Source: a virus
IMG/VR virus record: IMGVR_UViG_3300044972_000600
Coordinates: 1 to 21,676 of that record
Reading direction: 5' to 3' (one strand)
Length of the DNA: 21,676 nt
Positions within the stretch are counted from its first letter, which is position 1. Each line of letters begins with the position of its first letter. Shown piece by piece: positions 4,061-16,035 of the stretch. Made by a program: the position numbers and the translations under genes. The notes beneath the pieces were generated by a model. That model did no database searches. It was not told the DNA's origin and saw only the letters and a program-made list of their open reading frames with translations.

Positions 4061-4465
4061 ATGGTAAAAACAGCACTGGATCTTTTTAATGATCCTTTTT
4101 TTAATACCTTCTCAAACTTACAGAAGGTAACAACAACAACAAACTATCCACCTTATAATCAGGTTAAACTAAATGATAAAGAGTATATTCTTTCATTTGC
4201 TTTGGCTGGGTTCTCTAAGGATGATGTCTCAGTATCGCTAGACAATCGCAAACTTACAATCAAGGGCGAGAAGCAGGATGCTGAGTTACCAGAGGGTGCG
4301 GAGTATCTACACAAGGGAATTGCTGCTCGTAAATTCACTGATATCTTCACTCTTCCTGAGTTTGTCGAAGTTGTTGGGGCTGAATTTAAGGACGGTATCT
4401 TAGATATCAGACTTGAAAAGCAGATCCCAGAAGATAAACTACCAAAAACTATTGAAATTCAATAG
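4061..4465 (+). CDS. Small heat-shock protein Hsp20 (alpha-crystallin family)
   Basis: A 134-residue chaperone. The alpha-crystallin domain runs over about residues 35-125 (start around YILSFALAGF, conserved GILDIRL near the end), and the C-terminal I-x-I anchor is IEI at 131-133. Such proteins form oligomers that hold unfolding proteins without ATP. Hsp20 genes are well known in cyanophages, where they are thought to help folding or virion assembly. This gene has its own perfect promoter, so it may be strongly and early expressed (inference). It leads into the pstS unit. Confidence 0.93.
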   Translation: MVKTALDLFNDPFFNTFSNLQKVTTTTNYPPYNQVKLNDKEYILSFALAGFSKDDVSVSLDNRKLTIKGEKQDAELPEGAEYLHKGIAARKFTDIFTLPEFVEVVGAEFKDGILDIRLEKQIPEDKLPKTIEIQ

Positions 4466-4480
4466 TATAATAGATACTAT

Positions 4481-4582
4481 TCCGTCATGATACATGCAGT
4501 TGCTTATAGCAACCCTATTGCTGAGTACGGATAAGCCAGGGTCGCACCCTGGGAGACCTGAGCAAGTCCATAAACTGCTCCA
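4481..4582 (+). ncRNA. Candidate structured RNA upstream of pstS (copy A)
   Basis: A gene-free stretch with dense helices. CCGT/ACGG (4482-4485 with 4527-4530) encloses a CATG/CATG hairpin and a GTTGC/GCAAC hairpin (4499-4513). Next come a 7-bp CCAGGGT/ACCCTGG stem with a three-base loop (4536-4552) and a GAGCA/TGCTC hairpin (4560-4580). A TATAAT at 4466-4471 could start it. Parts of it match the RNA element downstream of pstS (5708-5791): the segment around GGATAAG, and GAGACC-TG-GCAAGTC. It may be a leader regulating pstS or an independent small RNA, but the predicted leaderless pstS start argues for independence. Confidence 0.45.
4557..4580 (+). repeat. 24-nt hairpin motif, + strand copy before pstS
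   Basis: The only + strand copy of the window's recurring element (left part CCTGAGCAAG, right part AAACTGCTC), with the GAGCA/TGCTC stem and an 11-nt loop. It forms the last hairpin of structured RNA copy A. It has the same orientation relative to transcription as the - strand copies have to their genes. Confidence 0.6.
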
Positions 4583-4644
4583 TTATTCATCTAAAGTTCT
4601 TTGTTTGTTTGCCATTTATAACAAAACTTTATAGAATTGTTAGA

Positions 4645-4650
4645 TATACT
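4645..4650 (+). promoter_or_regulatory. -10 box of a leaderless pstS promoter
   Basis: TATACT ends exactly 6 bases before the ATG at 4657, so transcription should start at or next to the A of the ATG. No clear -35 hexamer and no ribosome site are visible. The same spacing is seen at many other genes of this window. Confidence 0.5.
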
Positions 4651-4656
4651 ATAACT

Positions 4657-5691
4657 ATGAAACTTAAACTATCGCTCATCGCAGCACTCGTTGCGTCATT
4701 TATTTTTATTCCATCAGCATCCGCTTCAGAGCAAATTACTGGTAGCGGATCTTCCTTTATAGCAAACTACCTTGATGCATGTCGTATCACTTATGCAAAA
4801 TCAACGGGAAATACAGTAACATATTCATCACTTGGATCTGGGGCAGGAAGAAACCAACTATCCAATAAAATAATAAATTTTGCTGGTAGCGATACGCCAT
4901 TTGCTCCAGGTGAGCAACAGCCAGAGGGATATGTTTATGTGCCATTCATTGCTGGTCCAATTGCAATAATGTACCGTCTTGATGGGTACAACAAACCAAT
5001 TCAATTAAGCAGAACTACCCTTGCTAATATTTTTGCAGGTAAAATAACAAAATGGAATGATAAGGCAATAGTTAAAGACAATACCATAAAAGGTGTAAAA
5101 CCAAAACTTCCAAACACTTCATTAAAAATTGCTTTTAGATCAGATGGTTCGGGAACCTCTCAAATATTTACTGAATATTTTAATGCAGTAAATCCTAACA
5201 TCTGGAAAAAACCAGGAAATAAAGATTTTAAAAGTGCATTTCCAGGAACAATTCCAGTTTCAGCACAGTCTGGATCGGGATCTCATGGTGTTGTAATGAT
5301 TACAAGACAGATGAATGGTGCAATAACATATGCAGAGTTATCTTATGCATCTGGTTTAAAGGTTGCTTTGATAGAAAACTCAGCAGGAAAATTCATAAAA
5401 CCAAGCGCAAAGTCAGCATCTCAATTTCTTAGTAATTTTCAGCAGGGAGATAACGGTATTATTAATGCTAATTATAATAACCCAAACCCATTAGCATATA
5501 ACCTATCTGCTTTTAGTTATATCATAGCCTTTAAAGAAAAAACTCCTAAAAATACTGAAGTTAAACAGTTCCTATCCTTTTCAATAACAAAATGTACAAA
5601 GGATGCAGTTGGGTTAGGATATGCACCACTGTCTGGTCCTGCACTAATCCTTGCTAGAGAAAAAATATCTGAGATAAGTTCTGGAAATTAA
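4657..5691 (+). CDS. pstS: Periplasmic-type phosphate-binding protein PstS
   Basis: A 344-residue secreted phosphate binder of the high-affinity Pst transporter. Residues 1-23 form a Sec signal peptide (Lys-rich start, hydrophobic core, cut after A21-S22-A23). There is no lipobox Cys, so it would be released or held otherwise. Phosphate-site motifs are GSGSSF (29-34), GSDTPF and FRSDGSGTSQIF, followed by the QSGSGSHGV segment. Only the binding subunit is encoded, with no PstABC nearby, as in pstS-carrying cyanophages, so it would have to feed the host transporter. The start at 4657 is chosen over 4609 because the signal peptide begins there and a -10 box lies 6 bases upstream. Structured RNAs flank it on both sides. 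Confidence 0.93.
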   Translation: MKLKLSLIAALVASFIFIPSASASEQITGSGSSFIANYLDACRITYAKSTGNTVTYSSLGSGAGRNQLSNKIINFAGSDTPFAPGEQQPEGYVYVPFIAGPIAIMYRLDGYNKPIQLSRTTLANIFAGKITKWNDKAIVKDNTIKGVKPKLPNTSLKIAFRSDGSGTSQIFTEYFNAVNPNIWKKPGNKDFKSAFPGTIPVSAQSGSGSHGVVMITRQMNGAITYAELSYASGLKVALIENSAGKFIKPSAKSASQFLSNFQQGDNGIINANYNNPNPLAYNLSAFSYIIAFKEKTPKNTEVKQFLSFSITKCTKDAVGLGYAPLSGPALILAREKISEISSGN

Positions 5692-5707
5692 CTGATATAA
5701 TATTATA

Positions 5708-5791
5708 GTCCCACACAGGACCTTAGTGATGGATTAGTTACCCATTGGATAGAGACCGTGGCGCAAGTCAGGTGAATTGCCTGTGTGGGAC
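5708..5791 (+). ncRNA. Candidate structured RNA downstream of pstS (copy B)
   Basis: A perfect 12-bp inverted repeat, GTCCCACACAGG (5708-5719) with CCTGTGTGGGAC (5780-5791), closes a 60-nt interior that can form at least one more hairpin (GATGG/CCATT). It is not followed by a clean T-run, so it is not a typical terminator. Interior segments match copy A upstream of pstS: around GGATTAG, and GAGACC-GTG-GC-GCAAGTC. It could also give 3' stability to pstS mRNA or separate it from the nuclease gene that starts 28 bases later. Class not recognised. Confidence 0.5.
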
Positions 5792-5818
5792 CTAATATTT
5801 TGCGGTATAATAATAACA

Positions 5819-6091
5819 ATGACTGACAAAGAGTTGGACCATTATAATAAGCAGCAGTACAAGAAGATGCTTGCTAAGATAAAAGAGGATTCTGGCTGTG
5901 TAGATTGTGGTGTTGGTAACCATATAATCCTAGACTTTGACCACATAAGAGACAAGAAATACAATGTATCAAGGATGATCCATGATGGTTTTTCATGGAA
6001 GGCTATCAAGAAAGAAATAGAAAAGTGTGAAGTGGTTTGTGCCAACTGTCACAGGATCAGGACTTACAACAGGCTTAACGGTATGATATAA
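5819..6091 (+). CDS. Small HNH endonuclease
   Basis: A 90-residue HNH nuclease. The zinc pairs are C27-x2-C30 and C74-x2-C77. The catalytic DFDH lies at 39-42 and the final N76/H78 at the end of the motif (CANCHR). Enzymes of this kind nick or cut DNA and are common in phages as homing or packaging-related nucleases. The start at 5819 is chosen because TATAAT (5806-5811) ends 7 bases before it, giving a leaderless mRNA. An upstream TTG at 5777 would lie inside the RNA hairpin and lacks a ribosome site. It directly follows structured RNA copy B; a functional link is possible but unproven. Confidence 0.85.
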   Translation: MTDKELDHYNKQQYKKMLAKIKEDSGCVDCGVGNHIILDFDHIRDKKYNVSRMIHDGFSWKAIKKEIEKCEVVCANCHRIRTYNRLNGMI

Positions 6092-6098
6092 TTATAGT

Positions 6099-6401
6099 AT
6101 GACAAACTGCCCAAAATGCTCTTCTTCAGCAATCGATTCAGAAGTTGCTATGGCTATGTACGACTCATCAATTGGTAAGGCATACGAAGACTGTGGTTGT
6201 CCAACTTGTAAAGAACTAAACGTAACCTGTGAAGAGTGTCCAGATTGCCAGGCTGAAACAGTTGCTAAGCAAGCACCTTGCTGGGATGGCTATGTACAAA
6301 GAGGCATGAAGCCAGGTGCAGACGGAAAGCCAGTACCTAACTGTATTCCAGTCGCTAAGTCAGATAGTTGGATTGATTCTCCATTTAGGATGGTAAAGTA
6401 A
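6099..6401 (+). CDS. Cys-rich zinc-binding-type phage protein, 100 aa
   Basis: Ten cysteines: C4, C7, C32, C34, C37, C44, C47, C50, C61 and C82. The first eight fit two zinc-ribbon or knuckle units. The segment CWDGYVQRGMKPG...VPNC (61-82) resembles a short C-W-x-G-Y...K-x-G...V-P-N-C element seen in various phage proteins; this is from memory and not checked. A TATAAT (6087-6092, extended by TG) ends 6 bases before the ATG, although it overlaps the stop of the preceding gene. The stop overlaps the next start (TAATG). Function unknown. Confidence 0.75.
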   Translation: MTNCPKCSSSAIDSEVAMAMYDSSIGKAYEDCGCPTCKELNVTCEECPDCQAETVAKQAPCWDGYVQRGMKPGADGKPVPNCIPVAKSDSWIDSPFRMVK

Positions 6402-6529
6402 TGCCAAAGAAAAAAGCAGCAGCGTTTAATCCTATTCAGATTAAAGATGGATGGATTGTTAGATTATATAAAGATGGTCGTATTAAGTCCAAGATCGCAC
6501 CTTACGAAGTAAAGCATCCTAAGAAGTAG
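6401..6529 (+). CDS. Small basic protein, 42 aa
   Basis: It starts within the stop codon of the Cys-rich gene (TAATG) and ends 2 bases before the sulfotransferase start. The sequence is Lys-rich with a beta-like centre (GWIVRLYKDGRI) that could be a nucleic-acid-binding hairpin. Its exact fit between two genes supports it. No family recognised. Confidence 0.6.
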   Translation: MPKKKAAAFNPIQIKDGWIVRLYKDGRIKSKIAPYEVKHPKK

Positions 6530-6531
6530 TA

Positions 6532-7275
6532 ATGTCAAAGTATAACAAAGTATACTTTTTGCATATTCCAAAAACTGGTGGAAGATTCTTAACCAAGTAT
6601 ATCTTTAGACCAATGGAAACTGTATTGGCAGACAACGGAATAGAACTTGTAAAGTCTCCACAAGACATGAGGCAGCATGCTGGATGGCCATCCTGGATAG
6701 ATGATAAGACATACATTGTTTCAGTTTTTAGAGATCCATGTGAGTTCTTTGTTAGTGCAGTTTGCCATGCTGTGGCAATCAAAAATGAATTAGTAGATCA
6801 GAACAATTGGGACGTAATAAAAGAAGGTAATGATTCATTTACTGTTGACAAAGATGAACTATATGGAGCACTAAGCAGATGGGAATACATCAAAGACTTT
6901 CAGTCTCAAAACTTTGCTTTAAGTCCAGATCCTGAGCGTATGTCAGTACTACATGAGTCTATGGCCAAGCATAAGAACAATGAGCCATTTGATACAGAAG
7001 AAATTTACAAAAGAATTAAAAGAGTTAATCTAATGATTAGGCACAAAGATTTAAAGTTTATGGATTACAACTTATTAGTAGATAAAATTTCACAAGACCT
7101 AGGAATAGAAATAGATATTAACATTTCAGGTGCTGATAAAGAATATTTTAAAAATAAATCCTCAGAGGTTCTTTTTAATTCATTAAGTCAAGAAGATAAA
7201 GACTTTATAGGAAAACATTTTCCTTTAGATAAAGAGATATATAGTAATGATTCTTTATTTTGGACAGGGAAATAG
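6532..7275 (+). CDS. Sulfotransferase-family protein
   Basis: A 247-residue protein with the two PAPS-binding signatures of the sulfotransferase superfamily. The 5'-phosphosulfate loop FLHIPKTGGRF lies at residues 9-19 and the 3'-phosphate motif RDP-x5-S at 67-75 (FRDPCEFFVS). The family moves sulfate from PAPS to carbohydrates, lipids or proteins. The acceptor here is unknown; cell-surface glycans or phage structural proteins are possible. It is the last + strand gene before the convergent katG gene. In phages such genes are occasional auxiliary genes. Confidence 0.75.
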   Translation: MSKYNKVYFLHIPKTGGRFLTKYIFRPMETVLADNGIELVKSPQDMRQHAGWPSWIDDKTYIVSVFRDPCEFFVSAVCHAVAIKNELVDQNNWDVIKEGNDSFTVDKDELYGALSRWEYIKDFQSQNFALSPDPERMSVLHESMAKHKNNEPFDTEEIYKRIKRVNLMIRHKDLKFMDYNLLVDKISQDLGIEIDINISGADKEYFKNKSSEVLFNSLSQEDKDFIGKHFPLDKEIYSNDSLFWTGK

Positions 7276-7298
7276 GGTAGTTTTAAGTCATACCCAGG
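7275..7298 (-). repeat. 24-nt hairpin motif after katG, covariant copy
   Basis: Read on the - strand it has left part CCTGGGTATG and right part AAAACTACCC, 16 bases after the katG stop. The stem is GGGTA/TACCC instead of GAGYA/TGCTC, so two base pairs have changed on both sides while pairing is kept. It also overlaps the last base of the convergent sulfotransferase gene. Confidence 0.65.
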
Positions 7299-7314
7299 AC
7301 TATTTGTCTTTGTG

Positions 7315-9396
7315 TTAGAACATATCTAGGTTCATTACCTTTGTCCATACAGAAGCAAAATCATTTAAAAACTTTTGCTTGGCATCATCAGATGCATATA
7401 CTTCTGCAATTGCACGAAGTTCTGAGTTTGAGCCTACGATTAGGTCAGCACGACTTGCACTTCCTGCATCTTGTCCATCTCTTGTTGCTAGGTAAGAATC
7501 TTCGCTTACCTTTGTCCAAGAAAACTTTCCAGATACCATTGCATTTAGATATCCAGTGTGGAGGCTCTGTCCAACAAGAGTTCTCATACCACCTAATAGA
7601 ACAACCATTTCAACTGGAGTAAGTCCAAGCATGTTTGCTTTTTCTACCAACAGTACTTCGCTAGGAACAGTTGTGTCTTTCTTAAGATAGTTAATAAATC
7701 CATCAGCAATTGGCTCAAGAACTGCGAATGACTCAACATCTGTCTGCTCTTGAGTTGCATCAGTTCTTCCAGGAGTAAATGGAACCTTAACTAATTCTTC
7801 AGATGCCTTTTCAATAGCAGCAGAAGCAGCAAGAACGATCAGATCAGCAAGAGACATGCCCTTCGCAACTGTTTGTTGCAATCCTTCAAGGTATGCTAAT
7901 GTATCCCATACTCTTGGAGTGTTAACAGTCTCCCAATTACCCTGTGGTTGTAGTCTAATTCTAGAACCATTTGCACCACCACGCTTGTCTGTCTTGCGGA
8001 ATGTTGATGCAGAAACCCATGCAGTATAAACAAAGTTATACAGCGAAAGTTGTGATGATTTAATTTCTGATTTGATTTGATCTATATCTAAATCAACAGG
8101 CTCATACTTTGGAACTGGATCCTGCCATATAAGTTCTTCTGAAGGAACTTCCTTACCAAGATACCTTGATACTGGTCCCATGTCTCTGTGCGTTAGTTTA
8201 AACCATGCACGAGCAAAGGCATCTGAGAAGTAATCAAAGTCTTCAAGGAATCTGCGAGAGATCTTCTCATACTCTGGATCAAATCTTAATGCAAGGTCTG
8301 CTGTTGTCATAACTGGAGCATGGAACTTTCCTTCGATGTGTGCGTCTGGAACTAAATTAGCAGCAGACTCATCTGTTGGAATCCATTGTGTTGCACCAGC
8401 AGGTGATTTTGTTTGTGTCCAATCATACTTAAACAATAACTTAAGGTATGAGTTGTCCCACTTGGTAGGTGTTGCAGTCCATGCACCCTCAATACCACTT
8501 GTGATTGTATCTTCTGCATTACCCTTACCAAACGAGTTCTTCCATCCAAGACCCTGCTCTTCAATAGGTGCACCCTCTGGTGCAGGACCTACATGAGATG
8601 GATCTCCAGCCCCGTGTGCTTTACCAAATGCGTGTCCACCAGCAATTAGTGCAACTGTTTCTTCATCATTCATTGCCATTCTTGCAAATGTTTCACGAAT
8701 GTCTTTTGCAGAAAGAACTGGATCAGGATTTCCATTAGGTCCTTCAGGGTTAACATAAATTAATCCCATCTGCACAGCAGCAAGTGGATTTTCTAACTCA
8801 CGATCTCCGCTATAACGGTTATCTGCAAGCCATTCCTTTTCTGCACCCCAGTATGTGTCGTCAGATTCCCAAACATCTTCACGACCACCACCGAAACCGA
8901 ATGTCTTGAAGCCCATGTTCTCAAGAGAAACATTGCCTGCAAGAATCATTAGGTCTGCCCATGAAATCTTTTTACCGTACTTCTGCTTAATTGGCCAAAG
9001 AAGTCTACGAGCCTTATCTAAGTTACCATTGTCTGGCCAAGAATTTTGTGGAGCAAATCTGTGTAGTCCTTCTCCAGCACCACCACGACCATCACTTACT
9101 CTGTAGGTACCAGCAGAGTGCCATGCCATACGAATAAAGAACGGACCATAGTTACCATAGTCTGCAGGCCACCAATCTTGCGAGGTAGTTAGAAGTGTAT
9201 CAATATCAGCCTTAACAGCATCAAGATCTAAACTATTAAACTCCTTGGCATAATCAAAGTCTTCTCCCATTGGATCTGACTTTGAGGAATTCTTTCTAAG
9301 GGGAGACAGGTCTAGTTGGTTTGGCCACCAGTCTTTATTTGATGTAGCCTCTGTTGTGTATGTCTTACCAGTGTATGGACACTTTGCTTCACTCAT
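7315..9396 (-). CDS. katG: Catalase-peroxidase KatG
   Basis: A 693-residue bifunctional haem enzyme that removes hydrogen peroxide, slightly shorter than typical (about 720-740 residues) but with both halves present. The distal site is R89, W92 and H93 in [11 protein letters not shown]. The crosslink triad needed for catalase activity is W92-Y214-M240. The proximal haem ligand is H255 in IAGGHAFGK. All key residues are intact, so it is probably active. There is no signal peptide, so it is cytoplasmic. The ribosome site is AGAAAGAG. It is expressed from its own extended -10 promoter with a long hairpin at the mRNA 5' end, downstream of two tRNA genes. It most likely protects an infected host from peroxide (inference). 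Confidence 0.97.
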
Positions 9397-10869: not shown

Positions 10870-11189
10870 TCCTTATCCTCCCAATATGCTTTACCAAACT
10901 CATCAAGGTCATCCCACCCTGAACCCTCTAGGTCTTTTTTCATTTGTTCTATATCAAGTTGGTAGTATGTACCCCACCATGTGTAGGGTTTGTTAAGAAT
11001 TATCCACATTTTTGCGTGGTACTTATGACGAAAGCCTAAGTCAGCATCCAACTCTTCTTCCAACATTAAAGCCTTAAATAAATGATTACCAGCAAATCCA
11101 CCACAGAAATTACCTATGACTCTTAGTGGCCAGATCCTAGTCTTCTCTATCTTTGTTGTACTGTTGCGGTACCCATCTGAGTTTGCCAT
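10866..11189 (-). CDS. Hypothetical protein, 107 aa
   Basis: A Trp- and Tyr-rich soluble protein with an acidic C-terminus, coupled to the next gene by ATGA. No domain recognised. Its first 53 bases overlap an upstream frame (11137-11253), so the true start might be slightly later; no other good start is visible before the conserved-looking core (RVIGNFCGGFAGNH). Confidence 0.65.
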   Translation of the reverse strand: MANSDGYRNSTTKIEKTRIWPLRVIGNFCGGFAGNHLFKALMLEEELDADLGFRHKYHAKMWIILNKPYTWWGTYYQLDIEQMKKDLEGSGWDDLDEFGKAYWEDKE

Positions 11190-14381: not shown

Positions 14382-15236
14382 ATGAAACCAGAACTATGTA
14401 ATGCAAGCCCCCAAGGAGTAGGACATGCTGGAGAGTATGGCAAGATAGGCTTTTCCCCATGTGGCGAATATGTCTCCCATGAGAGTGATAAACCCTGCAA
14501 CCCTCTACCTGTTAATGAAGGTTTGATAAATAAGGATAACTGCCACTGTAAGGAAGCCTTATGCCCATGTGGGGAGTTCTTGTCCCATAGGGTGATTGAT
14601 CCATGTACCGCAAAAATATCAGAGCCAGAGATTGAACCAGAGGTTGAGAGTTATGGTGAGATAGGTTTGGCTACAAATGTATTTTCAGAAAAAGAGATAG
14701 ATGGTTTGTATGCGATTATAAATTCCAGATGGCCAGATACTAACAAAGAGTTAGGTAGAATTGAGTTTAGCCTACCTTTGGATATCATAAAGACAAAGAC
14801 CGTTGAAAAATTACAAAATATTGTAAAGCAGGTTACTGATGTACCGTTGGAGATACGCAGTGTTACCTATGTAGAGTACAACCCATTGTATGGTAATCCT
14901 AACCTACCCCCACACCTTGATGCAGATGTAAATGACCTTATCCTGAATATCCAGATAGAGTCTAACACCGATTGGGCTTTAGGTTTAGACCTTAAGGCAT
15001 ATAAGATAGAGGACAACTCTGCCCTTATCTTTAATCCCAATAAGCAGATCCATTGGAGAGCCCATAAGGAGTTTAAGGATGGAGAGTATGTCAGGATGTT
15101 GTTCATAAGGTTGTTTAACCCAGAGAGCCCATCAGATTACTCACACCTAGATGTTCTCCAAGACCATGAGATGTTTAAAGAAGCAAGAGAGTTTAGAGAT
15201 AGTTATCCACAGGCTGATAGACTAAAAATGTCATAG
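14382..15236 (+). CDS. Cys-repeat / 2OG-Fe(II) oxygenase fusion
   Basis: A 284-residue protein. The N-terminal part has two copies of CGE-(Y/F)-(V/L)-SH-x5-C (C27...H33...C39 and C63...H69...C75) with further cysteines at 6, 54, 56 and 61, probably zinc knuckles. The C-terminal 190 residues look like a 2OG-Fe(II) oxygenase: H178-x-D180 in PPHLDAD, a distal His (H224 or H228) in IHWRAH, and R238 or R243 for 2-oxoglutarate. It is the only + strand gene between two - strand blocks. Its last codons carry a DnaA box. The substrate is unknown; the knuckles may bring it to a nucleic acid or protein partner (inference). Confidence 0.7.
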   Translation: MKPELCNASPQGVGHAGEYGKIGFSPCGEYVSHESDKPCNPLPVNEGLINKDNCHCKEALCPCGEFLSHRVIDPCTAKISEPEIEPEVESYGEIGLATNVFSEKEIDGLYAIINSRWPDTNKELGRIEFSLPLDIIKTKTVEKLQNIVKQVTDVPLEIRSVTYVEYNPLYGNPNLPPHLDADVNDLILNIQIESNTDWALGLDLKAYKIEDNSALIFNPNKQIHWRAHKEFKDGEYVRMLFIRLFNPESPSDYSHLDVLQDHEMFKEAREFRDSYPQADRLKMS

Positions 15237-15320
15237 TTATCCACAAGTTATCCACAGATTAATCTTACTGATTATATTATTAGACAGTCTAGAAGTGGAG
15301 TGAAGTGGAGGATAGTGGAG
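15203..15320. other. Candidate replication origin: DnaA boxes, AT-rich stretch, iterons
   Basis: Three perfect TTATCCACA boxes lie at 15203-15211, 15237-15245 and 15248-15256. The last two are one helical turn (11 bp) apart in the same direction. An AT-rich stretch follows (15257-15290), then three GTGGAG units with a strict 10-bp period (15295, 15305, 15315). This is the arrangement of origin elements in plasmids, phages and chromosomes. No rep gene is visible nearby. The first box is inside the end of the oxygenase gene and could be chance. Confidence 0.5.
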
Positions 15321-15390
15321 TATAGGGCCCTTTTATAGATGGCGTCGTAATCTTCTGGGCGACAAACCTCACATCTCCAAACCTTCAAAC

Positions 15391-15419
15391 CTCATACCAC
15401 ATATGCCCGATATTGTCAA
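15391..15419 (-). promoter_or_regulatory. Orphan promoter facing the DnaA boxes (inverted copy)
   Basis: TTGACA (15414-15419), a 17-bp spacer, TATGAG (15391-15396). It lies inside a longer sequence that recurs in the opposite direction at about 15872-15909 (GGTTTGACAATAT, ten variable bases, TGGTAT-R-AGGTTTG). No open frame follows it; a transcript would cross the iterons and DnaA boxes. Confidence 0.5.
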
Positions 15420-15447
15420 ACCTCATATCCTATTGTAAGGTTTGGGC

Positions 15448-15476
15448 ATTATACATGCAAAACCTTGGTTTGTCAA
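15448..15476 (-). promoter_or_regulatory. Perfect orphan sigma70 promoter
   Basis: TTGACA (15471-15476), a 17-bp spacer, TATAAT (15448-15453) on the - strand. No gene follows before the end of the convergent oxygenase gene about 200 bases on. It may make a non-coding or replication-primer RNA (inference). Confidence 0.7.
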
Positions 15477-15521
15477 GTCCTTGTATGCATGATTTTGCCC
15501 ATAAAAAATCTCCCAAAACCA

Positions 15522-15546
15522 GGGAGAAATTGTCGATAATCGTAAT
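15522..15546 (+). repeat. Copy R1 of the GGGAAAA-N12-TCGTAAT repeat
   Basis: GGGAGAAA (15522-15529) and TCGTAAT (15540-15546), with the same separation as in copies R2-R5. It is the most diverged copy and lies in the gene-free part of the candidate origin region. Confidence 0.4.
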
Positions 15547-15603
15547 CTTATTTTATAAAACCAATATGAAATATTTAAGAAACCAGGATAAAAGGTTTGT
15601 TAT

Positions 15604-15855
15604 TTACCATAGGGTTAATTGGGTATACTTTGACTCCCCCGATTTTTGCGACGGCATAGGATAAGGGGCATGATTAACAGTATTATCAATGATTTCCGCA
15701 GGGGATCTAAAGAAAGGAAAGAAAGCCTTAAGAGTAACAATAGAATACAACATGCCTGTTAATGTACCTACTGCTTCATTAAATATTGCAGAGTCAGAAA
15801 GAGAATCATGTCTATGAGACTTGTTCTGATACATCTTTGCAAAGTGGTGTGGCAT
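15604..15855 (-). CDS. Hypothetical protein, 83 aa
   Basis: A His-rich N-terminus, one moderately hydrophobic segment (about residues 28-48, GTLTGMLYSIVTLKAFFPFF) and a polar tail; it could be membrane-associated. TATAAT (15862-15867, extended by TG) ends 6 bases before the ATG, so the mRNA would be leaderless. It is isolated inside the repeat-rich origin-like region. No family recognised. Confidence 0.55.
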   Translation of the reverse strand: MPHHFAKMYQNKSHRHDSLSDSAIFNEAVGTLTGMLYSIVTLKAFFPFFRSPAEIIDNTVNHAPYPMPSQKSGESKYTQLTLW

Positions 15856-15861
15856 GGTTTA

Positions 15862-15867
15862 ATTATA
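15862..15867 (-). promoter_or_regulatory. Extended -10 box of a leaderless promoter for the 15855 gene
   Basis: TG-T-TATAAT, 6 bases, ATG. It lies back to back with the + strand promoter at 15875-15903. Confidence 0.55.
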
Positions 15868-15874
15868 ACATGGT

Positions 15875-15903
15875 TTGACAATATAAGGTTTGTATGGTAT
15901 AAG
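15875..15903 (+). promoter_or_regulatory. Orphan + strand promoter (inverted partner of 15391-15419)
   Basis: TTGACA (15875-15880), a 17-bp spacer, TATAAG (15898-15903), embedded in the same GGTTTG-flanked sequence as the - strand copy. Only frames of 11 and 25 codons follow. The RNA would cover repeats R2 and R3 and run antisense into the 16068 gene. Confidence 0.55.
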
Positions 15904-15919
15904 GTTTGGCCAAACCAGG

Positions 15920-15997
15920 ATATGCTAGGTTTGGGGAAAAGAATTGGCCCATCGTAATATGCCTAGGTTTGGGGAAAAGAATTTGATCGTTCGTAAT
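15920..15997 (+). repeat. Tandem repeat units R2 and R3
   Basis: Two near-identical units 37-39 bp apart, each ATATGC(C)TAGG, TTTGGGGAAAAGAATT, about 6-8 variable bases, then TCGTAAT. The G-run at 15933 or 15971 is 19 or 20 bases before TCGTAAT. The same pattern, more diverged, recurs at 15522-15546 and 18811-18879, always between genes. Confidence 0.65.
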
Positions 15998-16035
15998 CAT
16001 CTTTTGAAAATGTGGTTTGCATGGTTTGACATATG

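Follow-up and report, generated by a model that had tools for sequence, protein, structure and literature searches.

We found that a compact block of DnaA boxes, an AT-rich stretch and three short direct repeats in an actinobacterial phage most likely serves as the replication origin of freshwater actinobacterial phages related to the Stanwilliamsviridae, or as the DnaA-loading and unwinding core of that origin. The comparison of related sequences makes it probable that the block is a DnaA-dependent phage origin that is crossed by an opposing transcript and that carries a putative binding box for the host regulator MraZ at a fixed distance. The anatomy of the block, its conservation and the identity of its repeats with boxes found upstream of bacterial mraZ are established, and neither MraZ nor the C-terminal domain of DnaA was detected in the phages searched.

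The window and the anatomy of the block

The window (the whole stretch of DNA analysed) is an IMG/VR virus contig of 21,676 bases. It encodes a WhiB protein, which points to an actinobacterial phage, and a phrog_1221 protein of a kind common to many actinobacterial phages, and the DnaE polymerase of one complete relative was closest to that of Streptomyces phages such as BillNye (Stanwilliamsviridae). Taken together, these three observations indicate that the window derives from an actinobacterial phage. The KatG encoded in the window was nearest (65-69%) to that of a set of genomes, most of them small (1.3-1.8 Mb), and freshwater actinobacteria as host would fit these small genomes. KatG (a catalase-peroxidase type protein) belongs to a set of host-type genes at 4061-9396 that also includes Hsp20 and a phosphate-binding-type protein (PBP_like_2). 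The phages encode their own replication proteins (a DnaB-like helicase and a DnaE polymerase), and one neighbouring protein of the block had 410 candidate relatives in IMG/VR.

Table 1. Features of the block and its flanks (positions in the window)
Feature	Position	Strand	Remark
Left neighbour, 284 aa	14382-15236	+	gene at this place differs between relatives
DnaA box 1, TTATCCACA	15203-15211	+	inside the 3' end of the left frame here; intergenic in many relatives
DnaA box 2, TTATCCACA, of tandem pair	15237-15245	+	
DnaA box 3, TTATCCACA	15248-15256	+	AGTGGAG triplet begins 46 bp after the start of this box in 49/59 non-redundant relatives
Core AAT-n-TTACTGAT	15262-15272	+	TTACT starts 8 bp past the DnaA box
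AT-rich candidate unwinding stretch	15265-15282	+	readable as six triplets similar to DnaA-trios, TTA CTG ATT ATA TTA TTA
MraZ-type box, three AGTGGAG repeats	15294-15320	+	3-nt spacers, 10-bp period
TCGTAAT repeat, first of four same-strand copies	15345-15351	+	others at 15540, 15952 and 15991
Promoter P2, leftward	15391-15419	-	TTGACA-17-TATGAG
Promoter P1, leftward	15448-15476	-	TTGACA-17-TATAAT, 12/12; predicted to read across MraZ box, AT-rich stretch and DnaA boxes
Conserved 83-aa protein	15604-15855	-	nearest of the fixed right-hand genes

An earlier note on this DNA had described three consensus DnaA boxes (two of them 11 bp apart), an AT-rich stretch, three GTGGAG units of strict 10-bp period and two tandem sigma70 promoters followed by no reading frame. 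All of these were recovered (Table 1): the starts of boxes 2 and 3 are separated by 11 bp, the repeat unit is AGTGGAG with starts at exactly 15294, 15304 and 15314, and one of the two promoters is a full match. The same note had placed these elements in a gene-free stretch, which holds from 15237 onward; box 1 falls in the final 34 bases of the left-hand frame, and the right part of the larger gap holds the conserved minus-strand gene for the 83-aa protein. Markov shuffling of the window, repeated 300 times, gave a mean of 0.34 boxes per shuffle, and neither three boxes within 60 bp nor an AGTGGAG triplet occurred in any shuffle; the block of boxes and repeats is not due to chance.

Several other features were seen in and around the block. 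A fourth perfect TTATCCACA lies isolated at 11000, outside the element, and complete relatives also have several scattered copies. Between 15200 and 16070 there are 15 copies of the hexamer GGTTTG, some in each orientation (noted at window 15363-16028). They overlap both leftward promoters and also a promoter-like site at 15875 that points right, and look like operator repeats of some regulator. In most freshwater relatives TCGTAA is less frequent across the genome than expected, but several of these relatives have copies grouped close to the element, and TTCGTAAA is also present in the gene-poor gaps of BillNye and Samisti12. A TATAAT-like -10 precedes the start codon of the 83-aa gene by only a few bases (window 15604-15868), as in leaderless mRNA. 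In some relatives (L008, L013) the match to the 284-aa left neighbour is confined to its first 79 residues, and this N-terminal part may, judging from the sequence, be a separate module.

Conservation in related phages

The first relatives were found via two flanking proteins, and in these the block was the best-kept part of an otherwise changing noncoding region. To keep the motif itself out of the choice of loci, we aligned one protein encoded to the right of the block, used it to search IMG/VR and obtained 60 usable loci. At least two TTATCCACA boxes together with TTACT were identified by script in 59 of these and by inspection in the remaining one (L487), where the distance from box start to TTACT is 17 bp as elsewhere. 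The AGTGGAG triplet was present with at least 19 of 21 matching positions in 56 of the 60 loci, the few weaker triplets mostly retaining TGG at the 10-bp positions, and the leftward promoter in 57. In a second set, for which the triplet was the criterion of choice and which comprises 59 non-redundant elements, TTACT starts 8 bp past the box in 53. On a tree of 57 loci, chosen for having box and TTACT, the core AAT-n-TTACTGAT is unchanged except for n and one change of the last base. The sequence following the box is AT-rich, as expected for an unwinding element (79% AT versus 63% for the loci). Four loci (L219, L226, L262 and L263) keep TTACTGAT and the MraZ box and have no consensus DnaA boxes. 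No match to the block was found among plasmids, and deposited phages match it only in short pieces around the boxes.

The genes on the right side are fixed and all on the minus strand. The left neighbours belong to 33 protein families in 83 cases (44 on the minus and 39 on the plus strand), and since they vary in kind and in orientation the block does not serve one gene. In 51 of 52 elements there is a leftward promoter that matches 11-12 of 12 consensus positions with a 17-bp spacer, at 128-194 bp to the right of where the triplet starts; a score of 11 was reached in 2 of 260 shuffles. The second, tandem promoter is visible in the alignment of relatives. Given the diversity of left neighbours in both orientations, the predicted transcript would cross the block whatever gene comes next.

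The AT-rich stretch, when read as triplets, is similar to DnaA-trios and has T in the middle position at 74-100%, which is an enrichment over within-triplet shuffles. The count of changes by triplet position on the tree of 57 loci (20/21/47) indicates that the middle base is no better kept than the first. No report of DnaA-trios in a phage origin was found among the titles and abstracts that searches of open-licence papers retrieved.

The earlier note had proposed cumulative GC skew as a check, and had taken a skew or depth minimum elsewhere combined with boxes not conserved in relatives as speaking against an origin. The boxes are overwhelmingly conserved. In two circular genomes (G006 and G008) the skew, which is not a strict criterion for phages, follows gene strand and has its extremes at gene-strand switches away from the element, with no turn at the element itself; this check does not favour the element as origin. 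Strand-corrected GC skew revealed no replication signal. In the same two genomes (L383-L394) the third-position skew differs between the genome halves and has the same sense on both strands, so that it tracks gene class or region and not the replication strand.

The repeats as a putative MraZ box

The 10-bp repeats had been described as iterons. This we rejected for plasmid-type iterons, which are longer and are bound by a Rep protein that the replicon itself encodes, as the units are 7-mers at a 10-bp period and match the bacterial MraZ box, for which 7-nt repeats with 3-nt spacers have been published (PMC7761207). Known boxes have at least three such GTG-containing direct repeats, and the MraZ-type box of the window has three, with 3-nt spacers. 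A coding origin of the triplet rhythm was rejected by eye, as in the consensus an in-frame stop (TAA) directly precedes the triplet.

A scan of bacterial genome contigs with the exact AGTGGAG triplet connected the repeats to mraZ. After removal of 5-bp-periodic repeats and cut contigs, the triplet was located upstream of mraZ in 52 of the 81 remaining bacterial loci among the matches listed, a share that applies to those matches and is no census; the MraZ signature starts 57-155 bp downstream of the triplet in at least 55 bacterial loci. Nine small actinobacterial genomes from the top of the list of matches to the window KatG all encode MraZ, and 10-bp boxes of related sequence are found about 86-131 bp upstream of mraZ in these nine KatG-selected genomes. 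On this sequence evidence, the repeats are a putative box of MraZ, a cell-division regulator. A same-strand -10 just upstream of the box, overlapping the transcription start as in bacterial dcw promoters, was not found in the phage; the conserved promoter faces the box from the opposite strand.

Exactly one triplet was found in all but one of 18 phage records, four of these one-triplet records (L160, L192, L209 and L213) belonging to a group in which the triplet seems to be coding. This second group (L151, L177, L209 and others) was excluded, as its AGTGGAG triplet seems a coincidence inside a conserved reading frame on the other strand (YSTxLHYTPLY, read by eye). A search of the 18 phage records detected no MraZ, and a search of 9 detected no DnaA C-terminal domain; in the sampled phages the host proteins are thus expected to bind. 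No paper on an MraZ box in a phage was found among the titles and abstracts that searches of open-licence papers retrieved.

Proposed origin function and alternative readings

Protein binding, melting, transcription and the start of replication at the block are what we infer, as follows. Host DnaA would bind the tandem boxes and open the adjoining AT-rich stretch, after which the phage DnaB-like helicase and DnaE polymerase would take over. From 70-155 bp to the right, the two sigma70 promoters would drive leftward transcription across the AT-rich stretch and the boxes, and the resulting RNA could serve as an activating or primer transcript, similar to the transcription that activates the lambda origin. 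The putative host MraZ box lies between promoter and AT-rich stretch, at the fixed 46 bp from the DnaA box, and our guess is that bound MraZ bends the DNA or blocks the opposing RNA polymerase, making firing dependent on the division state of the host. That host MraZ is built into the phage origin, with firing gated by host DnaA and host division state, is a tentative proposal that we hold with some doubt. Of the origin reading in the earlier note, the use of host DnaA and of a transcript that activates or primes replication fits the comparative evidence, as boxes, AT-rich stretch and leftward promoter are conserved as a unit, the left neighbour is not conserved and the phages lack a detected DnaA C-terminal domain; the iterons are the part that did not stand.

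Conservation of nearly perfect promoters would also suit a role in transcription control, with DnaA and MraZ acting as roadblocks or operators on a P1/P2 transcript that serves the left genes or a small RNA. The overlap of the GGTTTG repeats with P1 and P2 and the presence, in some relatives (e.g. G006), of a left gene on the strand of the transcript are in line with this reading. We nevertheless consider it unlikely, since about half of the left neighbours, spread over 33 families, are antisense to the transcript and the AT-rich core is left unexplained; in addition, alifold gave an energy of 0 and no consensus structure for the leftward RNA, in a run without a control. Somewhat less likely still is a decoy, in which replicated phage DNA acts as a sponge for host DnaA and MraZ, so that host initiation stops and the division gene cluster is disturbed, and is not an origin. 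Both kinds of sites belong to cell-cycle regulators of the host, and the searched phages lack MraZ and the DnaA C-terminal domain, as a decoy would have it, but there is a single MraZ box per genome, and a sponge needs neither the rigid 46-bp spacing nor the invariant TTACTGAT core nor a conserved opposing promoter. A packaging or terminal-repeat junction site, suggested by Samisti12, where no more than 100 bp separate the DnaA-box block from position 123045, at which the right terminal repeat begins, is very improbable: the box cluster of BillNye is 5.4 kb from its terminal repeat, and DnaA and MraZ sites have no known role in packaging.

The origin reading can be compared with known systems. 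The block resembles the basal unwinding system of bacterial oriC, which combines tandem DnaA boxes with DnaA-trios (PMC8287927), in its same-strand tandem consensus DnaA boxes, short spacer and AT-rich triplet-like stretch, but it is located in a phage with an MraZ-type box next to it and neither dnaA nor dnaN beside it, and its trio-like triplets are degenerate and without support from the tree-aware count. With the lambda origin and its pR/pO transcription (PMC3985674) it shares transcription across the origin region and involvement of host DnaA, both of them predicted here, and DnaA-box-like sites near a promoter; it differs in that no O-type initiator sites were found, the core consists of consensus DnaA boxes and an MraZ-type box is present. 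With the MraZ box of mraZ/dcw promoters (PMC7761207, PMC8475190) it has the repeat architecture in common, whereas the phage box is intergenic, precedes no division gene and does not directly follow a same-strand -10. In bacterial sequences, four TTATCCACA boxes were seen just upstream of dnaB (L417 and L419, the latter from an Aquiluna MAG) and a TTATCCACA pair between dnaA and dnaN (L418).

The closest parallel among cultured phages is found in Samistivirus (Samisti12, Jay2Jay; Stanwilliamsviridae), where a conserved noncoding DnaA-box cluster likewise lies left of a leftward gene block with a phrog_1221 gene, in Samisti12 at a position comparable to that in the window. The Samistivirus boxes are mostly convergent, however, and the MraZ box and the TTACTGAT core are absent. 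Gene-poor gaps of Samisti12 and BillNye hold three or four clustered TTATCCACA and no MraZ box. Across nine Samistivirus-type phages no other noncoding part is conserved as well as the box block, which carries no origin annotation in the cultured phage records examined. We infer that the DnaA boxes are older and that the MraZ box was added in the freshwater group.

The block provides a concrete candidate origin for phages of the Stanwilliamsviridae type. MraZ is known for regulating the division and cell-wall cluster of bacteria, and little is known of its use elsewhere; if widespread lake phages place an MraZ box by their DnaA boxes, their replication may be tied to the division control of the host.
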